Notes under the pieces: generated by a model
Database searches by the model: none
Seen by the model: only the letters and a program-made list of their open reading frames with translations
Told to the model about the DNA's origin: nothing
Shown here: piece by piece, positions 21,522 through 64,000 of the stretch
Position numbering within the stretch: position 1 is the stretch's first letter
Layout of the letters: each line of letters begins with the position of its first letter
Translations under genes and position numbers: made by a program
NCBI GenBank assembly: GCA_030615765.1
Contig: JAUWYP010000001.1
Span: forward strand, 124,001-188,000
DNA from: Dehalococcoidia bacterium
GTDB taxonomy: Bacteria; Chloroflexota; Dehalococcoidia; SM23-28-2
Direction of reading: 5' to 3'
DNA length: 64,000 nt

Positions 21522-21950
21522 CTAGATGTCCAGTAGTATCTGGACGCGATAGCCGTCCTCGTCCTCGTCCACCTCCAGCATGTGGCGGGTGATCGCCTTG
21601 ACGCCCGCGCCCAGCTCATGCCGCTGGCGGTCTATCTTCTCGCCGTAGGCGCTGGCCCGGAGGGAATAGGGCTCCATCTGCCTGATCTCGAATCGCTTGA
21701 AGACGAGGCCGTCGACATCGGAGAAGTAAATAAGCTCCGACAGCCAGGCCACCAGCAGGCTGGGCCAGTCGTGAGCCTCCACCGCCAGCGACCGCTCCTC
21801 CTTTTCCCGCACTCCGTTCAGGTTGACCATGACGGAAAACATACCCTCGGCCGCATGCACAAAGGCCTCGGCCAGGGTGCCACCGTGGGCTATCACACCC
21901 ACGTCGGCGGTGTGCTCCAGGAACTCGAAGGGCGCTCGCTTGGTCGCCAA
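21522..21950 (-). CDS. Archease, activator of RtcB
   Basis: A 142-residue archease: the opening FEFLEHTADVGVIAHGGTLAEAF, an acidic metal-binding cluster (HDWPSLLVAWLSELIYFSD), and the HELGAGVKAITRHML strand with a C-terminal ILLDI. Archease speeds guanylylation and turnover of RtcB. The start is TTG at 21950 with GGAGG about 12 bases upstream. It is the first gene of the archease-rtcB operon. Confidence 0.9.
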   Translation of the reverse strand: MATKRAPFEFLEHTADVGVIAHGGTLAEAFVHAAEGMFSVMVNLNGVREKEERSLAVEAHDWPSLLVAWLSELIYFSDVDGLVFKRFEIRQMEPYSLRASAYGEKIDRQRHELGAGVKAITRHMLEVDEDEDGYRVQILLDI

Positions 21951-22335
21951 GGCGGAAGAAAACCTCCCTCTACAGCCAGTATGTCACTCGGCCCTCAAGA
22001 CCGTCAATGCAGGGGTCGGACGGGGACGGTCAACCTGCGGCGGGCAACCCCTCGGCGATGCTGCGGAGCGAATCACTGGTTGCGGGCACTTCGTTCCTGG
22101 CGTGACTGGCTCATTTTTGCTGGGTAGGGGTTTTCGGATCATCCCGCGGGTTGAAACCCGCGGCTTCCTAGAATCGAAATTTTGGTGCTGCGGGATTTAT
22201 CCTGCAGGGTTAGGGAGTTCACCCACCGGTGGTGAACCAGGTTACTTCCTGGCCGCCTGCTTGACAAGAGAAGGATGTTTGGCAAGGATGGAGCTACGGG
22301 ATTGCCTCAACCAGGAGCGATCGAAGGACAGACGA
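21951..22335. other. 385-bp intergenic region with hairpin repeats
   Basis: No gene is seen between archease and the Fe-S protein. The region holds three consecutive hairpins (22144-22237, listed separately). A TTGACA at 22261-22266 could be a -35 box, but no good -10 box follows at the right distance. Confidence 0.5.
22144..22237. repeat. Cluster of three REP-like hairpins
   Basis: Hairpin A: CCGCGGGTT / AACCCGCGG (22144-22163). Hairpin B: CTGCGGGAT / ATCCTGCAG with one G-T (22188-22207). Hairpin C: GTTCACC-c-ACCGGT-GGTGAAC (22217-22237). The GGGTTGAAACCC and GGGATTTATCC cores are of the kind often repeated between genes in many bacterial genomes. No transposase is present. Confidence 0.6.
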
Positions 22336-23154
22336 ATGTGCGAGTATTGCGCCAAGTATGGCCACGGGAACCGCTGGTACCTGAACCCGGAGAACTACTC
22401 CGACGAGCTGCTGAAGGACAAGGCGCGTCAGCGCATGGTCGACCAGATAGCAGCCTGGGGAGTGGACTACTACATCGACCGCTCTACCCGCCAGGCGCGC
22501 TTCAGCCACGTGCCCCTCTTCGGTAGCCTATTCAAAGCAGCCGTCGACCGCGTGACGCCGGGCCGGCACGCGGGGCAGGTGGTCGCTCTGGAGGACGCGC
22601 TGGCGATAGTGGACCTCGCGCGCGACTTCGTGGCGCTGCCCTGCATGTGCCGCCGCCTGGTGGGCGGCAAGGAGGTGATGACCTGCCTCAACTTCGGCCC
22701 GATCAAGGAACTCACCATCGCCCGGAAGCCGGAAGAGCCCATGGAGGAGCTGTCGCGCGAAGAGGTCAAGGCCAGGCTGCGCGAGTTCGACAAGAGGGGC
22801 TTTATTCATCAGGTGGTCTTCGCCAAGCTCCCCTTCCCCATCGTCATCTGCAACTGCGACCGCAACTACTGCACCTCGATGAAGATGCGCTTCCAGCATG
22901 GCATCGATGTCGCCTGCCTGAAGGGGCACGGAGTCTGTGTCATCGATCACACCCGCTGCAATGGCTGCGGTGACAGGCCGCAGTGTATCCAGATGTGCCA
23001 GTTCGGTGCCCTGCGCTGGGTGCCCACGGATGGGGTGGTTGTCTGCGAGCCACAAGCCTGCTTCGGCTGTGGCCTCTGCCGTCAGGCGTGCCCACGCGGA
23101 GCCATCCGTCTCGTTCCCAGGGAGAGCCTCGCTCCCGTAGCAAACGTGTGGTAG
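22336..23154 (+). CDS. Cysteine-rich Fe-S protein, module 1 large subunit
   Basis: A 272-residue protein of unknown function. It opens MCEYCAKYGHGNRWYLNPEN, then has CMCRRLVGGKEVMTC and CNCDRNYC, and ends with two ferredoxin clusters. The second is canonical (CFGCGLCRQACP); the first has an unusual spacing, CNGCGDRPQCIQMC. A paralogue starting MCVWCERYG lies at 32104-32940 and shares the order of all motifs, which also fixes the start here at 22336. GAAGGA precedes it. It is followed after 2 bp by a small ferredoxin. An electron-transfer or redox-sensing role is inferred. The same frame is open far upstream without conserved residues. Confidence 0.8.
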   Translation: MCEYCAKYGHGNRWYLNPENYSDELLKDKARQRMVDQIAAWGVDYYIDRSTRQARFSHVPLFGSLFKAAVDRVTPGRHAGQVVALEDALAIVDLARDFVALPCMCRRLVGGKEVMTCLNFGPIKELTIARKPEEPMEELSREEVKARLREFDKRGFIHQVVFAKLPFPIVICNCDRNYCTSMKMRFQHGIDVACLKGHGVCVIDHTRCNGCGDRPQCIQMCQFGALRWVPTDGVVVCEPQACFGCGLCRQACPRGAIRLVPRESLAPVANVW

Positions 23155-44855: not shown

Positions 44856-45854
44856 CTACCCCAACCCCGCCGCCTCCTGGCGGACCTGGCGACGGAGGCG
44901 AGCGTGCACCTCTAGCGCTTCGGCGATGTCGACGCCAGCCAGCCAGTGGTAGTGAGCACCAGGCGCCTCGGCGTCCTTGGCCGATCGTGACACGAAATCA
45001 CGGGCTCTCTCCAGACCGCCATCCTCCCAGGACCTTAGCAGAGGCTGGAGATCGGCGAGAGACATGGACGCCACCCCCACTGTCCCGCACTCCAGAGCGT
45101 ACTGGTTGCCGTTGAAGACGATAGCCAGACCACCGGCATCGCGAACAGTGGTGAGCATGGCGTTGTCGGTGATGCTGTCGCCCACCACCACCCAGCGGGA
45201 GGTCTCCAGTTGGGCAGACATGGCGAGCTTGGCCAGGGCCCCGACCTTCCGCTTCCCGCCGATGGGCTTGACCGATGCCACGGCGTTCCCGAGAGGCGTG
45301 CCGGGCAGCTGTTTCCAGTAGAAGCTGTCGAGAAGAGCCTGAAGGCGCGCGTCGTCCTCCTGCACGTCCTGCTGGCGCAGGGCCAGCTCGATGCGGGTTA
45401 CCATTCCGATATCGTCCGGGGTCAGCCGAGTGGCGACCTCTTCCAGAGGAAAGCTGGTGCAAGCCACTCGCTCCGCTGCCAGACCCAGGCGCTGGGCCAG
45501 ACGGCGGGCGTACTGCTCATAGGTGGTGGTGATGCAGAAGACCTGATAGCCCTCGCCCGCCAGCTGGGCGATGGTCTCTACCGCCCCCTTGACCAGGGGA
45601 GCCGATTCGGCCAGCCGCTCGATATGGAAAACGCTCAGGCGGTGGTAGAGGAGAAAGGGAACGATGAGTGCTAGTGTATCGCCGGGCTCGTAGTCGGGCC
45701 GCCCGGCCAGGGCCAGGATGTCGTCGTAGCGGCTGATGGCCCGAAACACCTCGTGGCCCCCAGGCGCCAGGCCCATGAGCTCGAAGGCAGCATCCTGGGA
45801 TGTAAGAGGCCCCTCCATATCGAAGGCGATGCAGCGAATCGATTCTTGAGTCAT
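44856..45854 (-). CDS. HAD-superfamily hydrolase with DxE nucleophile motif
   Basis: A 332-residue HAD protein. Motif I reads FDMEGPLTSQD: the nucleophile Asp is present, but the second position is Glu rather than the usual Asp. Motif III/IV reads VVGDSITDNAM. The cap region is helical. Similar DxEGP HAD proteins are known to me mainly from archaea. The substrate is unknown. The start at 45854 overlaps the formyltransferase stop (ATGA). The reading frame stays open far upstream inside that gene, but it is antisense-free shadow sequence without family features. Confidence 0.78.
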   Translation of the reverse strand: MTQESIRCIAFDMEGPLTSQDAAFELMGLAPGGHEVFRAISRYDDILALAGRPDYEPGDTLALIVPFLLYHRLSVFHIERLAESAPLVKGAVETIAQLAGEGYQVFCITTTYEQYARRLAQRLGLAAERVACTSFPLEEVATRLTPDDIGMVTRIELALRQQDVQEDDARLQALLDSFYWKQLPGTPLGNAVASVKPIGGKRKVGALAKLAMSAQLETSRWVVVGDSITDNAMLTTVRDAGGLAIVFNGNQYALECGTVGVASMSLADLQPLLRSWEDGGLERARDFVSRSAKDAEAPGAHYHWLAGVDIAEALEVHARLRRQVRQEAAGLG

Positions 45855-46669
45855 GCTGAGCCTCCCAGACGATCGATCTCCTGCGTCAGGTCGTATGCGT
45901 CGATGGGGTGGCTGCCAGCGTCCACCACGCGCCCGCCTTCGATGCGCACCTTCCCATCGGCGAAGGCCCGCAGGGTGGCCACCACCAGGGGAAGCTCGCG
46001 CATCACCCCCTGACGACGAATCTCCCGGAACAAGCGATTGTCCTCGCCTTCGCTGGCTCGCACCCCGGCCAGGCTCCTCTCCTCCACCTCCGCCCACAGC
46101 CCATCGAAGGCGAGCCCACGGATGCTATAGGTGCAGTAAGTGACGGGCGGGCCCTGGTCCAGTTCCTTGGTGGCCAGGTGCATCATCACCCCCGCTGTCG
46201 ATGCGCCCTGCTCCATGAGCTGCCAGATGACGTCCTGCCAGGTGCCAGCGGGCCCGCCCGGCGGCGCCGGGTGGAGGTTGAGAAGATTGTAGCGCTGGCA
46301 GGCCTCCTCGGTGACGATAAGCATATAGCCAGCCAGGACGCCCAAGTCGAAGGGATGCGCCTCCAGCAACTCCATCATCGCTCGGTCGTAGTCCGCCCGC
46401 CAGGCGGGCAGCGGCTCGCCGGCCCGAGCGAGCGGTTCGCCTCGCTCCTGGCGAAAGCGTTTGGATGACAGGCAGACCAGGGGTATGGCGTAGCTTTCCA
46501 CCAGGTCGAAGAAGCGGTCGCTGGCCGGATTCTCGCCCCGCTCGCGATTGCTGAAGACGAAGACGATGCGGGCCTTCAGCTCGCCCGCCTCGATGGCCTG
46601 CCAGGCTGCCTCCAGGAGCTGACAGGCGGCCTCGTCGCGTCCAGTGGAGAACCAGCCGATATGTAGCAT
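45851..46669 (-). CDS. Formyltransferase-fold protein (PurN/Fmt-like)
   Basis: A 272-residue protein with the formyltransferase N-terminal fold: IGWFSTGRDEAAC, VFVFSNRERGE, VLAGYMLIV and the catalytic-type NLHPAPPGGPAGTWQD, in which Asn-x-His-Pro and Asp match the formyl transfer site. It is longer and more diverged than PurN. It could transfer a formyl group from formyltetrahydrofolate to an unknown amine. The operon with a HAD phosphatase and PfkB kinase suggests a small dedicated pathway rather than purine synthesis. Confidence 0.75.
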   Translation of the reverse strand: MLHIGWFSTGRDEAACQLLEAAWQAIEAGELKARIVFVFSNRERGENPASDRFFDLVESYAIPLVCLSSKRFRQERGEPLARAGEPLPAWRADYDRAMMELLEAHPFDLGVLAGYMLIVTEEACQRYNLLNLHPAPPGGPAGTWQDVIWQLMEQGASTAGVMMHLATKELDQGPPVTYCTYSIRGLAFDGLWAEVEERSLAGVRASEGEDNRLFREIRRQGVMRELPLVVATLRAFADGKVRIEGGRVVDAGSHPIDAYDLTQEIDRLGGSA

Positions 46670-60854: not shown

Positions 60855-61166
60855 CTGCTCAAAGGGGGAAGTCCTATACTAACCACGAAAAAGGCACGGC
60901 GGAGTGAAGATGCCACGATAGGCGTGGGCTAGCGGGGACGCGTGGGGTCTGACAGGGGAGAGCGTCGAGAGGTTTGGGCGGAGCAAGTAGCGAGCCGCAA
61001 GGACTAGGTTTGTCGCCTGACGGCGGGTCGTCTTCTTCAGCGTCCAATAAAACTACAACCTTCTTTACTGCTACGCCGCTGCCACTCTCATCCCATCGGC
61101 AACGGCGCCACACTCTCTTATAATACTAGCCATAAGCCCCCAGGCTGTCAAGGCGTATGCTTCCCA

Positions 61167-61182
61167 CCTGCCCGCTGGCAGG
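61167..61182. repeat. CCTGCC-cgct-GGCAGG inverted repeat
   Basis: A perfect 6-bp stem with a 4-base loop, ten bases before the alaS -10 box. It is of the same core type as the repeats at 41682 and 49394. Confidence 0.5.
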
Positions 61183-61191
61183 CAGGCGTGC

Positions 61192-61197
61192 TATAAT
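61192..61197 (+). promoter_or_regulatory. Extended -10 promoter of alaS
   Basis: TATAAT preceded by TGC (an extended -10 element), with no good -35 box. The predicted start near 61204 gives a leader of about 49 nt. Confidence 0.5.
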
Positions 61198-61219
61198 CCA
61201 CTCACGCCTCCCTAGACAG

Positions 61220-61248
61220 GCTTGCCTTGTCGGCAGGCGGGCGTTTTT
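61220..61248 (+). terminator. Terminator-like hairpin in the alaS leader
   Basis: GCTTGCC (61220-61226) and GGCAGGC (61232-61238) pair over 7 bp with one G-U pair, followed after five bases by TTTTT (61244-61248), which ends four bases before the alaS ATG. It could attenuate alaS transcription, or be only a copy of the repeat family. Confidence 0.35.
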
Positions 61249-61252
61249 CAAT

Positions 61253-64000
61253 ATGGACAGCCAAACGATTCGCGACACGTTCCTGCGCTTCTTCGAGGAG
61301 CGAGAGCACAAGGTGATGCCCAGCGCACCCCTGGTGCCCCTGGGCGACCCCACCCTGCTGTTCACCGGTGCCGGCATGGTCCAGTTCAAGCCCTACTTCG
61401 AAGGCCGCGCCACCCCGCCGGCCCGCCGCCTGGCCTCCGTGCAGAAGTGCTTCCGCCACAGCGACATCGATTCGGTGGGCGACACCGCTCACCTCACCTT
61501 CTTCGAGATGCTGGGCAACTTCAGCATCGGCGACTACTTCAAGGAGAAGGCCATCCCCTGGGCATGGGAGCTGGTGACCGACAAGAACTGGTTCGCCATA
61601 CCCAAGGAGCGCCTCTGGGCCGCCGTCCACCTCGACGACGACGAGGCCTTCGACCTGTGGCGCAAGGTGGGCGTGCCCGCCGAGCGCATCATGCGCTACG
61701 GCGAGGAGCACAACTACTGGTTCTGCGGGACGGTGGGGCCATGCGGGCCGTGCAGCGAGCTCCACTACGAGTTTGACCCCACGCCCGGCTGCCCGGAGTG
61801 CGAGCGCGAGCAGTGCCACCCGGCGGTGGAGTGCGGGCGCTTCCTGGAAATATGGAACCTGGTGTTCACGACCTACTTCCTGCAGCCCGACGGCTCGCGC
61901 ACCCTCTTGCCCGCCAAGAACATCGACACGGGCATGGGCCTGGAGCGAACGGCGGTGATCCTCCAGGACAAGCGCACGCTGTACGAGACCGACCTTTTCG
62001 CTCCGATCATCCAGCGGGTGGAGGAGCTGAGCGGCCATCGCTACGGCGAGGACGAGGCCACCGACCGGGCCATGCGCATCGTGGCCGAGCACACGCGGGC
62101 GGCGACCTTCCTGGTGGGCGACGACAAGACGCCGGTGCTGCCCAGCAACGACTGGCGGGGCTACCCCGTGCGGCGCGTCCTGCGGCGGGCGATCTACTTC
62201 GGGCAGCACCACCTAGGGCTGAAGGAGCCGTTCGTCAGCGCAGTGGCACAAGCGGTCATTGACCAAATGAGCCAGGCGTACCCGGAGCTGCGCCAGCAAA
62301 GGGACTTCGTGTTGCGAGCCCTTGGGGACGAGCAGCAGCGGTTTGAAGAAGTACTCAGCAACGGAGTCTTGGTTCTCGACGGCCAGGTGTTCCCTGCACG
62401 ACGCATCTTCTCCAACGTCAACAGTCGGTATATCGCTCAGATTGAACGATGGCTAAGCCGAGTGGCTCGCCGCGATGTATCGGGAGAGGACCGCGACAGG
62501 CTGCTTTCGCTGCTTAGGGAGTGGTCACACGAATGGGGACAGTTGTACGGATCGAGGAAGTACAAGGGCGATGTCGAGCGCATTGGCATACGCGCCAAGC
62601 TGGGCTTCGACGAACGCCTCGACGTCTACAACATGAGTCTGATGGACGCCACCAGCGAGGCAACAACGGGGCCTATTCACGACGTTGAGCTCCCTTCCGG
62701 ATCAAGCGTGCCGAGGGCTTTCTTGGAACTGGAAGGGCTGCCGGCCAAAGATGTGAAACGATATGTGCGAACGCACTTGGTGGATACGCCCAGAAGGGCA
62801 CAACACACCCTCAGCGGAAAAGAAGCATTCATCCTTTGGGACACCCACGGCTTGCCCATGGAGGTGACGCGCGAGATCGCCCGCGAGCACGGCTTCACCA
62901 TCGACGAAGAGGCTTTCGAGCGGGAGTTCCAGCGGGAGATGGAGGCGCAGCGGGAGCGGGCCCGCGCCGCCGCCAAGTTCAGCGCCGAGGGGCCAGCGGC
63001 AAGCTACGATGCCCTGGCCGACGTGGAGACGCCCTTCCTGGGCTACGATACGTTGACGGCGGAGACCACCGTCGTCGGCCTGCTGAGGGACGGCGGCCAG
63101 GCCGAGAGCGCCTCGGAGGGCGAGGCGGTGGAGGTCATCCTGCGGGAGACGCCGTTCTACGGCGAGGCCGGTGGCCAGGTCGGCGATACGGGGGAGATAG
63201 TCGGGCCTCACGGCGGCGTGCAGGTCGAGGACACCCAGCGGCCGACCGAAAAGCTCATCGTGCACCGCGGGCGCGTGGTCGAGGGGCGCATCGCCGTCAA
63301 CGACGCGGTGGTCGCCCGGGTGGACGAGCCCCGCCGCCTCGACATAATGCGCAATCACACCGCCACGCACCTCCTCCACGCCACCCTGCGACGTGTGCTG
63401 GGCGGCCACGTCCGCCAGGCAGGCTCGCTGGTAGCGCCCGACCGCCTGCGCTTCGACTTCACCCACATCGAGGCCATCAAGCCGGAGGAGCTGGCGGAGA
63501 TCCAGCGAATAGTCAACGACAAGATCCGGGCCGACCTGCCGGTGACTACCCGCCTCTCCAGCTTCGACGCTGCCATGGAGGAGGGCGTGCTGGCCTTCTT
63601 CGACGAGAAGTACGGCGACCAGGTGCGGGTGGTGGAGACGAAGGAGGACGGGGAGCGGTTCAGCGGCGAGCTATGCGCCGGCACCCACTGCTCGGCCACC
63701 GGCCAGATAGGGCTGCTCCTCATCGTGGGGGAGAGCAGCATCGGCGCCGGCATGCGCCGCATCGAGGCCATCAGCGGCCGCGGTGCCGAGGCCTATGTCC
63801 AGGAGCAGATGGCCGCCCTGGAGAGCGCCAGCCGCCACCTGGGGGCCGCTCCGGCCGATCTGGAGTCCAAGGCGGCCTCTCTCCTCTCGGACCTGGACAG
63901 CGAACGCAAGCGGGTGCAAGCGCTGGAGCGAGCGCTGGCTGCTCCCGCCGCCGAGGCCCTCGTCGGCAAGGCGGAGACGGTCGACGGCATCCCGCTGCTG
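61253..64000 (+). CDS. alaS: Alanyl-tRNA synthetase AlaS (3' end beyond window) with central insert
   Basis: The first 916 codons or so are visible and open to the window edge. The aminoacylation core is canonical: FFEEREHKVMPSAPLVP, FTGAGMVQFKPYF, CFRHSDIDSVG, HLTFFEMLGNFSIGDYF, and GPCGPCSE. The editing domain has HTATHLLHATLRRVL and CAGTHCSATGQIG. Between about residues 377 and 518, where AlaS normally passes directly from VLSNGVLVLD to LSGKEAFILWDTHGLP, there are about 140 extra residues with no recognised motif and no stop codon. The enzyme charges tRNA-Ala and edits mischarged Ser and Gly. Confidence 0.95.
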   Translation, partial: MDSQTIRDTFLRFFEEREHKVMPSAPLVPLGDPTLLFTGAGMVQFKPYFEGRATPPARRLASVQKCFRHSDIDSVGDTAHLTFFEMLGNFSIGDYFKEKAIPWAWELVTDKNWFAIPKERLWAAVHLDDDEAFDLWRKVGVPAERIMRYGEEHNYWFCGTVGPCGPCSELHYEFDPTPGCPECEREQCHPAVECGRFLEIWNLVFTTYFLQPDGSRTLLPAKNIDTGMGLERTAVILQDKRTLYETDLFAPIIQRVEELSGHRYGEDEATDRAMRIVAEHTRAATFLVGDDKTPVLPSNDWRGYPVRRVLRRAIYFGQHHLGLKEPFVSAVAQAVIDQMSQAYPELRQQRDFVLRALGDEQQRFEEVLSNGVLVLDGQVFPARRIFSNVNSRYIAQIERWLSRVARRDVSGEDRDRLLSLLREWSHEWGQLYGSRKYKGDVERIGIRAKLGFDERLDVYNMSLMDATSEATTGPIHDVELPSGSSVPRAFLELEGLPAKDVKRYVRTHLVDTPRRAQHTLSGKEAFILWDTHGLPMEVTREIAREHGFTIDEEAFEREFQREMEAQRERARAAAKFSAEGPAASYDALADVETPFLGYDTLTAETTVVGLLRDGGQAESASEGEAVEVILRETPFYGEAGGQVGDTGEIVGPHGGVQVEDTQRPTEKLIVHRGRVVEGRIAVNDAVVARVDEPRRLDIMRNHTATHLLHATLRRVLGGHVRQAGSLVAPDRLRFDFTHIEAIKPEELAEIQRIVNDKIRADLPVTTRLSSFDAAMEEGVLAFFDEKYGDQVRVVETKEDGERFSGELCAGTHCSATGQIGLLLIVGESSIGAGMRRIEAISGRGAEAYVQEQMAALESASRHLGAAPADLESKAASLLSDLDSERKRVQALERALAAPAAEALVGKAETVDGIPLL

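Follow-up and report, generated by a model that had tools for sequence, protein, structure and literature searches.

The DNA analysed here, a window of 64,000 nucleotides from a Dehalococcoidia bacterium (G000), ends within alaS, the gene for alanyl-tRNA synthetase (AlaRS), which is located on the forward strand at 61253–64000 with 916 of its 1,024 codons and continues in the contig (G000:C5, from 185253) to about 188327. The reading frame runs without a stop from the ATG at 61253 to the window end, 916 aa, and in the full contig it comprises 1,063 aa from stop to stop, or 1,024 aa from the ATG. The product matches the TIGR00344 alaS profile with an E value of 5e-235 and 782.5 bits (curated cut-off 457), as well as PF01411 and PF07973, and residues 3–373 align with the A. 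aeolicus enzyme 1riq (E about 1e-101 for that stretch). The NDWRGY motif (62147–62164, forward strand) contains N299, which aligns with a conserved Asn that we take to be the one used in acceptor-stem recognition, and which is invariant in one AlaS alignment (A1) and at least 90% conserved in a second (A2). Further downstream on the same strand the DTHGLP motif (62840–62857) carries D530, which aligns with residue 450 of the A. fulgidus AlaRS (register 507 to 427 on 3wqy), presumably the Asp that reads G3:U70. In the editing domain both the HxxxH and the CxxxH zinc motifs are present, the zinc/catalytic HTATH at residue 702 (63356–63370, forward strand) and CAGTHC, with CAGTH at residue about 808 (63671–63691, forward strand), and both are intact. 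All four tRNA-Ala records found have a GGGG..CTCC acceptor and retain G3:U70, ruling out an altered tRNA identity. One alaS copy was found in the assembly, which is 93% complete, and as the sole copy it is likely to encode an enzyme active in aminoacylation. With intact acceptor-recognition and editing motifs, a single gene copy and a G3:U70 tRNA-Ala, the AlaRS of G000 looks normal apart from one insert.

The original prediction placed an in-frame insert of about 140 residues in this gene, and the insert is real. It occupies 62381–62806 on the forward strand (residues about 377–518, including about 12 aa that replace the canonical loop), with the borders GQVF.. and ..AQHT/LSG, and AlaS profiles and solved structures align only to residues about 1–376 and from about 507/512 onward. 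Measured from RF.. to ..F, the loop is 164 aa long in G000 as compared to 34 aa in G003, the nearest insert-free relative and the comparison used for G000, which gives a net length of about 130 aa; in nearly all other AlaS examined, other phyla included, the canonical loop has 30–35 aa. On one side of the site is the long helix of the tRNA-recognition domain, and on the other the segment with D530.

In the AlphaFold2 models of the window AlaS (mean pLDDT 86.9) and of L086, which has an unrelated insert (mean pLDDT 88.2), the core helix continues to residue 404 as a single helix of 55–60 residues. The helices of the window model are 350–404, continuous with the core, 411–433, 435–443, 452–467 (low confidence) and 498–517, the far part (443–489) being of low confidence, and the later helices of the two models span 411 to 433 or 442, 446 or 452 to 467 or 469, and 498–517 or 477–494. 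The insert is predicted to form a helical arm that projects from the tRNA-recognition domain and has its root some ten residues ahead of the G3:U70-reading Asp. When the whole models were used for fold searches, the PDB hits were AlaRS and related synthetases, and BFVD gave viral AlaRS or unrelated, weak matches. On average the inserts are slightly acidic, with a mean net charge of about -3, which argues against a general RNA-binding arm.

The window insert has no match above the cut-off in Pfam, NCBIfam, PHROGs, PADLOC or PDB sequences, and no Pfam family, CAAD/CURT1 included, was found above the cut-off in 11 inserts. The phage, plasmid and IMG/VR collections also returned nothing, and a phage or plasmid origin was rejected for that reason, as was a link to defence for want of a PADLOC match. 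Neither a binding partner, a defence or mobile-element link nor a phage homologue was found for the inserts. AlaS-like sequence is present on four viral contigs; that of the best one (L234) runs across the site and leaves no room for an insert. Among 393 genomes of the class no convincing homologue of the window insert was found elsewhere, and only the insert of G004 resembles it, weakly (phmmer E about 0.01). The best other match is a 102-aa open frame, L065 (G179:C47:15222–15395), with 34% over 58 aa to a part of the insert (E=1.6e-5), and this could be a chance match or a free-standing relative of the arm.

In an initial comparison with the AlaS of 53 relatives the loop was either about 30–35 residues or much longer. 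Within the class, at least 53 of the 343 Dehalococcoidia genomes with a readable site carry an insert in the same place, with a loop of 60–164 aa, a lower bound since AlaS cut by contig ends were left out. These carriers, about 16% or a sixth of the class, fall in 29 of about 99 family codes. Outside the class, 3–4 of about 221 other Chloroflexota genomes show a similarly split AlaS match, and an insert is also found in one Armatimonadota genome (L090). The split matches belong to G550, G571 and G599 (f118) and to G535 (f146), which suggests inserts at the same loop in these genomes. These numbers do not bear out the situation that was to count against the original prediction, namely the insert being present with normal composition in most of the phylum's AlaS, and the composition is usually low.

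Most of the genomes compared are MAGs, and a low-G+C block in a MAG contig is what an assembly chimera could leave. The frame is kept, though, both borders lie within homologous AlaS sequence, and many independent genomes have an insert at the same site. Two of the carriers, G202 and G297, are single-contig assemblies, so that chimeras fail to account for the pattern, and we regard a chimera as hardly credible.

On a tree of the AlaS core, made from residues 5–235 and 640–885 with the insert and its surroundings left out, the presence of the insert switches at least 23 times, and 14 of these switches are forced by well-supported branches. In genus g4, G005 and G021 carry different inserts and G019 none; G018 of genus g8 is a carrier and G010 and G012 are not, and the same is true in genus g9 for G020 as against G014 and G016. 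Genus g161 has unrelated inserts in G246 and G341, and in G356 the match runs through with none. Family f19, with 14 sampled carriers, keeps the insert throughout. G353 apparently has two different alaS copies (G353:C10:35939–38320 and G353:C44:3515–5650), neither with a large insert, and these seem to be a duplication or contamination.

The 60 inserts form 34 sequence groups (phmmer E<1e-3), and no residues are conserved across groups. Comparison of ten group alignments by hhalign gave nothing clearly above the reversed controls, and one common family for all inserts is therefore unsupported. Groups that span families are G020/G133, G043/G371, G094/G246/G227/G283 and G048/G098/G175. Three of these include members of family f24, in which G043 groups with G371 (f47), G094 with G246 (f79), G227 (f52) and G283 (f53), and G175 with G048 (f29) and G098 (f37). 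Distant families can thus share a similar insert where sister genomes have unrelated types. Judged by eye, many inserts start with a loose pattern, a hydrophobic pair followed by R, K or H, which fits a continuing core helix. The shared site and this first-helix pattern would also agree with a single ancestral AlaS domain of the Dehalococcoidia that has descended vertically, with very fast evolution and many losses, and so would the vertical retention and host-like GC3 in families f19, f25 and f21. The similar inserts in distant families, the unrelated ones in sister genomes and the profile comparison, which relates no groups, are difficult to reconcile with such a domain, as are the abrupt local changes of synonymous divergence and GC3 near the insert that are described below, and we consider it decidedly improbable.

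A recount of bases gives exactly the numbers reported earlier, 274 G+C in the 480 bases at 62341–62820 and 45 of 60 at 62041–62100. GC3 is 67% in the insert versus 91% in the rest of alaS, and the dip ranks third in size among the window's 48 ORFs with 180 codons or more. The flanking residues 326–376 and 512–525, with the insert excluded, have a reduced GC3 (44/65 versus 633/681, p=3e-8), and between G000 and G003 they show 16 synonymous differences in 34 as compared to 127 in 548 elsewhere (p=0.003) and an excess of amino-acid differences (p=2e-6), all of these p values being optimistic since the segment limits were chosen after inspection. The low GC3 of the flanks places the start of the composition drop near 62220–62230, indicating that some of the core is included, as was supposed in the first place. 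Limits of about 62228 and 62827 from the comparison with G003 also agree with the breakpoints anticipated near 62220 and 62850. They delimit a putative recombinant segment on the forward strand (62228–62827, residues about 326–525), consisting of the insert with about 50 codons upstream and about 14 downstream, and having a G+C content of 58.2% versus 68.9% in the remaining alaS. The mechanism that best accounts for such a foreign segment is homologous recombination with a more AT-rich alaS, and this would have brought in the neighbouring AlaS core as well. No donor alaS was found for G000, and the only similar insert, in G004, is weakly so; the case for transfer here is made by composition and divergence.

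In a same-genus genome, the "chromosome" CP070630.1 (L105; G001:C1:177301–177942), there is a run of N inside alaS after residue about 214, beyond which the sequence joins unrelated DNA, making the gene unusable, and no alaS was found in G002 of the same genus; the comparison for G000 is therefore one beyond the genus, with G003. The largest GC3 dip of the window (0.46 versus 0.72, at 45840–46109) is located in an ORF on the reverse strand (44859–46124), in the N-terminal about 90 codons upstream of a HAD-like hydrolase domain, and possibly reflects a mis-set start or a foreign 5' part. An ORF on the forward strand (21775–23151) has an internal dip of 22 points at 22015–22284, in a part without a family, its Pfam matches being only C-terminal 4Fe-4S domains (residues about 390–445).

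The deviating composition recurs in the relatives. GC3 of the insert is below that of the core in 55 of 59 cases, with a median difference of -16 points and a difference of at least 20 points in 24 cases. In families f19, f25 and f21, where the insert is kept vertically, the differences are mostly small, in line with adaptation of older inserts to their hosts. The shift goes the same way in AT-rich hosts too, and random exchange among hosts of all compositions is therefore insufficient by itself. The flanks are mosaic in several pairs. G018 and G010 are 94% identical in the core, with 15% synonymous differences, but only 65% identical in the flank; from residue 321 to the insert the identity is 35–48%, and it recovers at once after about residue 520. 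In the codons of shared residues 19 of 27 show synonymous differences inside this stretch versus 88 of 586 outside (p=6e-10). For G020 compared with G014 the replaced stretch is residues 241–640, and these two cases, G018 and G020, are strong even though the segment limits were set with hindsight, which makes the p values optimistic. G021, G246 and G096 show a GC3 jump only, and no synonymous or GC3 jump at p<0.05 is seen in G005/G019, G164/G040 and G167/G044, nor in any of the four insert-free pairs tested. The mosaic flanks are most naturally explained by homologous recombination with an alaS that is distant and richer in AT, the crossovers probably lying in the conserved flanks, and the flanks of G005, which give no sign of import, show that the insert can apparently also change without flank replacement. 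A lineage-specific domain gained by recombination with a distant alaS was the earlier proposal; recombination that includes part of the core is still the most likely course, but the notion of a single domain has to be given up, since dozens of unrelated types occur across the class.

Low G+C, patchy presence and one fixed position are also properties of in-frame mobile elements such as inteins or intron remnants. No Hint/intein or endonuclease family was matched, in agreement with the earlier reading of the insert, no group I or II intron was found by Rfam at E<=1 in 61000–64000, the borders are without terminal repeats and the frame is open in all 53 carriers. Insertion alone would moreover not replace the flanking core, and a mobile element is accordingly very improbable.

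The inserts have a dN 3–5 times that of the core, and a dN/dS of about 0.1–0.4 where dS is unsaturated, indicating that they are translated and constrained. This bears on a simpler possibility, namely that the site takes almost any helical extension without cost, so that functionless arms arise or arrive by recombination, drift and get lost. The free variation in length from 60 to 164 aa, the slightly acidic helical sequence, the close relatives that often have no insert and the lack of residues conserved across groups are all as expected for such a tolerated loop. The constraint is not, nor are the retention throughout family f19 and the recurrence of sequence groups in distant families, and nothing comparable is present in TopA in 22 of the same genomes, where G024 has its split at a frame break and the other splits of the match lie towards the zinc-finger part at the C-terminus. 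A tolerated loop is in our opinion a real possibility, although not the expected one.

An insert with this fixed position, recurrence, hypervariability, patchy presence, low GC3 and mosaic flanks is probably a hypervariable, exchangeable helical arm at one permissive site of AlaRS, swapped by recombination. The permissive site would be where the long helix of the tRNA-recognition domain ends, immediately ahead of the G3:U70-reading segment, and the conserved AlaS sequence on either side of the arm would serve as ground for crossovers. An incoming alaS fragment, usually more AT-rich, would replace the local segment, and an arm might thereby be added, removed or swapped, leaving catalysis and editing untouched. 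The arm may be kept and diversified because it alters binding beside the acceptor-stem site. That it is kept for evasion of an antagonist directed at AlaRS is rather unlikely when taken separately, and docking to a variable partner is somewhat less likely still; taken jointly, antagonist evasion or partner-specific docking form a possible, tentative reason for its retention, about as probable as a tolerated loop. A related suggestion, speculative and rather unlikely, is that alaS is an allele-switching locus, where a diversifying arm on the acceptor-stem side would be swapped by recombination because phages, competitors or natural products attack AlaRS, much as happens with surface antigens and restriction specificity domains.

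The common view of synthetases is that they are slow-evolving housekeeping enzymes with lineage-conserved added domains, and arm swapping would not be expected in an enzyme that is essential and as a rule very conserved. The fixed site beside a tRNA-identity element, with dozens of unrelated arms that appear to be exchanged by recombination in about a sixth of the class, offers a natural set of variants for asking what selects for remodelling of an essential tRNA synthetase. It also calls for caution in using AlaS as a phylogenetic marker, as the protein is mosaic in the Dehalococcoidia. No report of this AlaS insert, or of unrelated arms swapped at one site in an essential synthetase, was found in the open-access literature searched.

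Compared with canonical bacterial AlaRS (1riq, E. coli 3hxu, TIGR00344), the catalytic, tRNA-recognition and editing parts are all present in order in G000, but about 130 extra residues are found between the helix of the tRNA domain and the DTYGFP-type segment. The archaeal AlaRS with tRNA (A. fulgidus 3wqy) shares the domain order, with D530 corresponding to its residue 450, but is without an arm at this loop. Lineage-specific inserts in synthetases are a known kind, and conserved signature inserts in AlaRS are reportedly used for bacterial taxonomy. The arm resembles these in being a lineage-restricted insert in a housekeeping protein, but signature inserts are by definition conserved within a clade, whereas the arm is hypervariable and changes state within genera, the 34 groups among 60 inserts differing even inside genus g161 and family f24. 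For repeated acquisition, the closest case on record is that of the CAAD domains inserted in cyanobacterial ValRS, IleRS, LeuRS and GluRS (PMC4893482), where in-frame domains have likewise been gained repeatedly by synthetases, at fixed sites and in scattered species. By analogy the arm, which is helical, neutral to acidic and predicted to project from the core, might be a CAAD-like docking or localisation domain that tethers AlaRS to a lineage-specific partner; no partner was identified, dozens of unrelated types are hard to square with one conserved partner, and we find this unlikely. CAAD is one recognizable membrane-anchoring family, whereas the AlaS site holds dozens of unrelated, swapped sequences in one enzyme.
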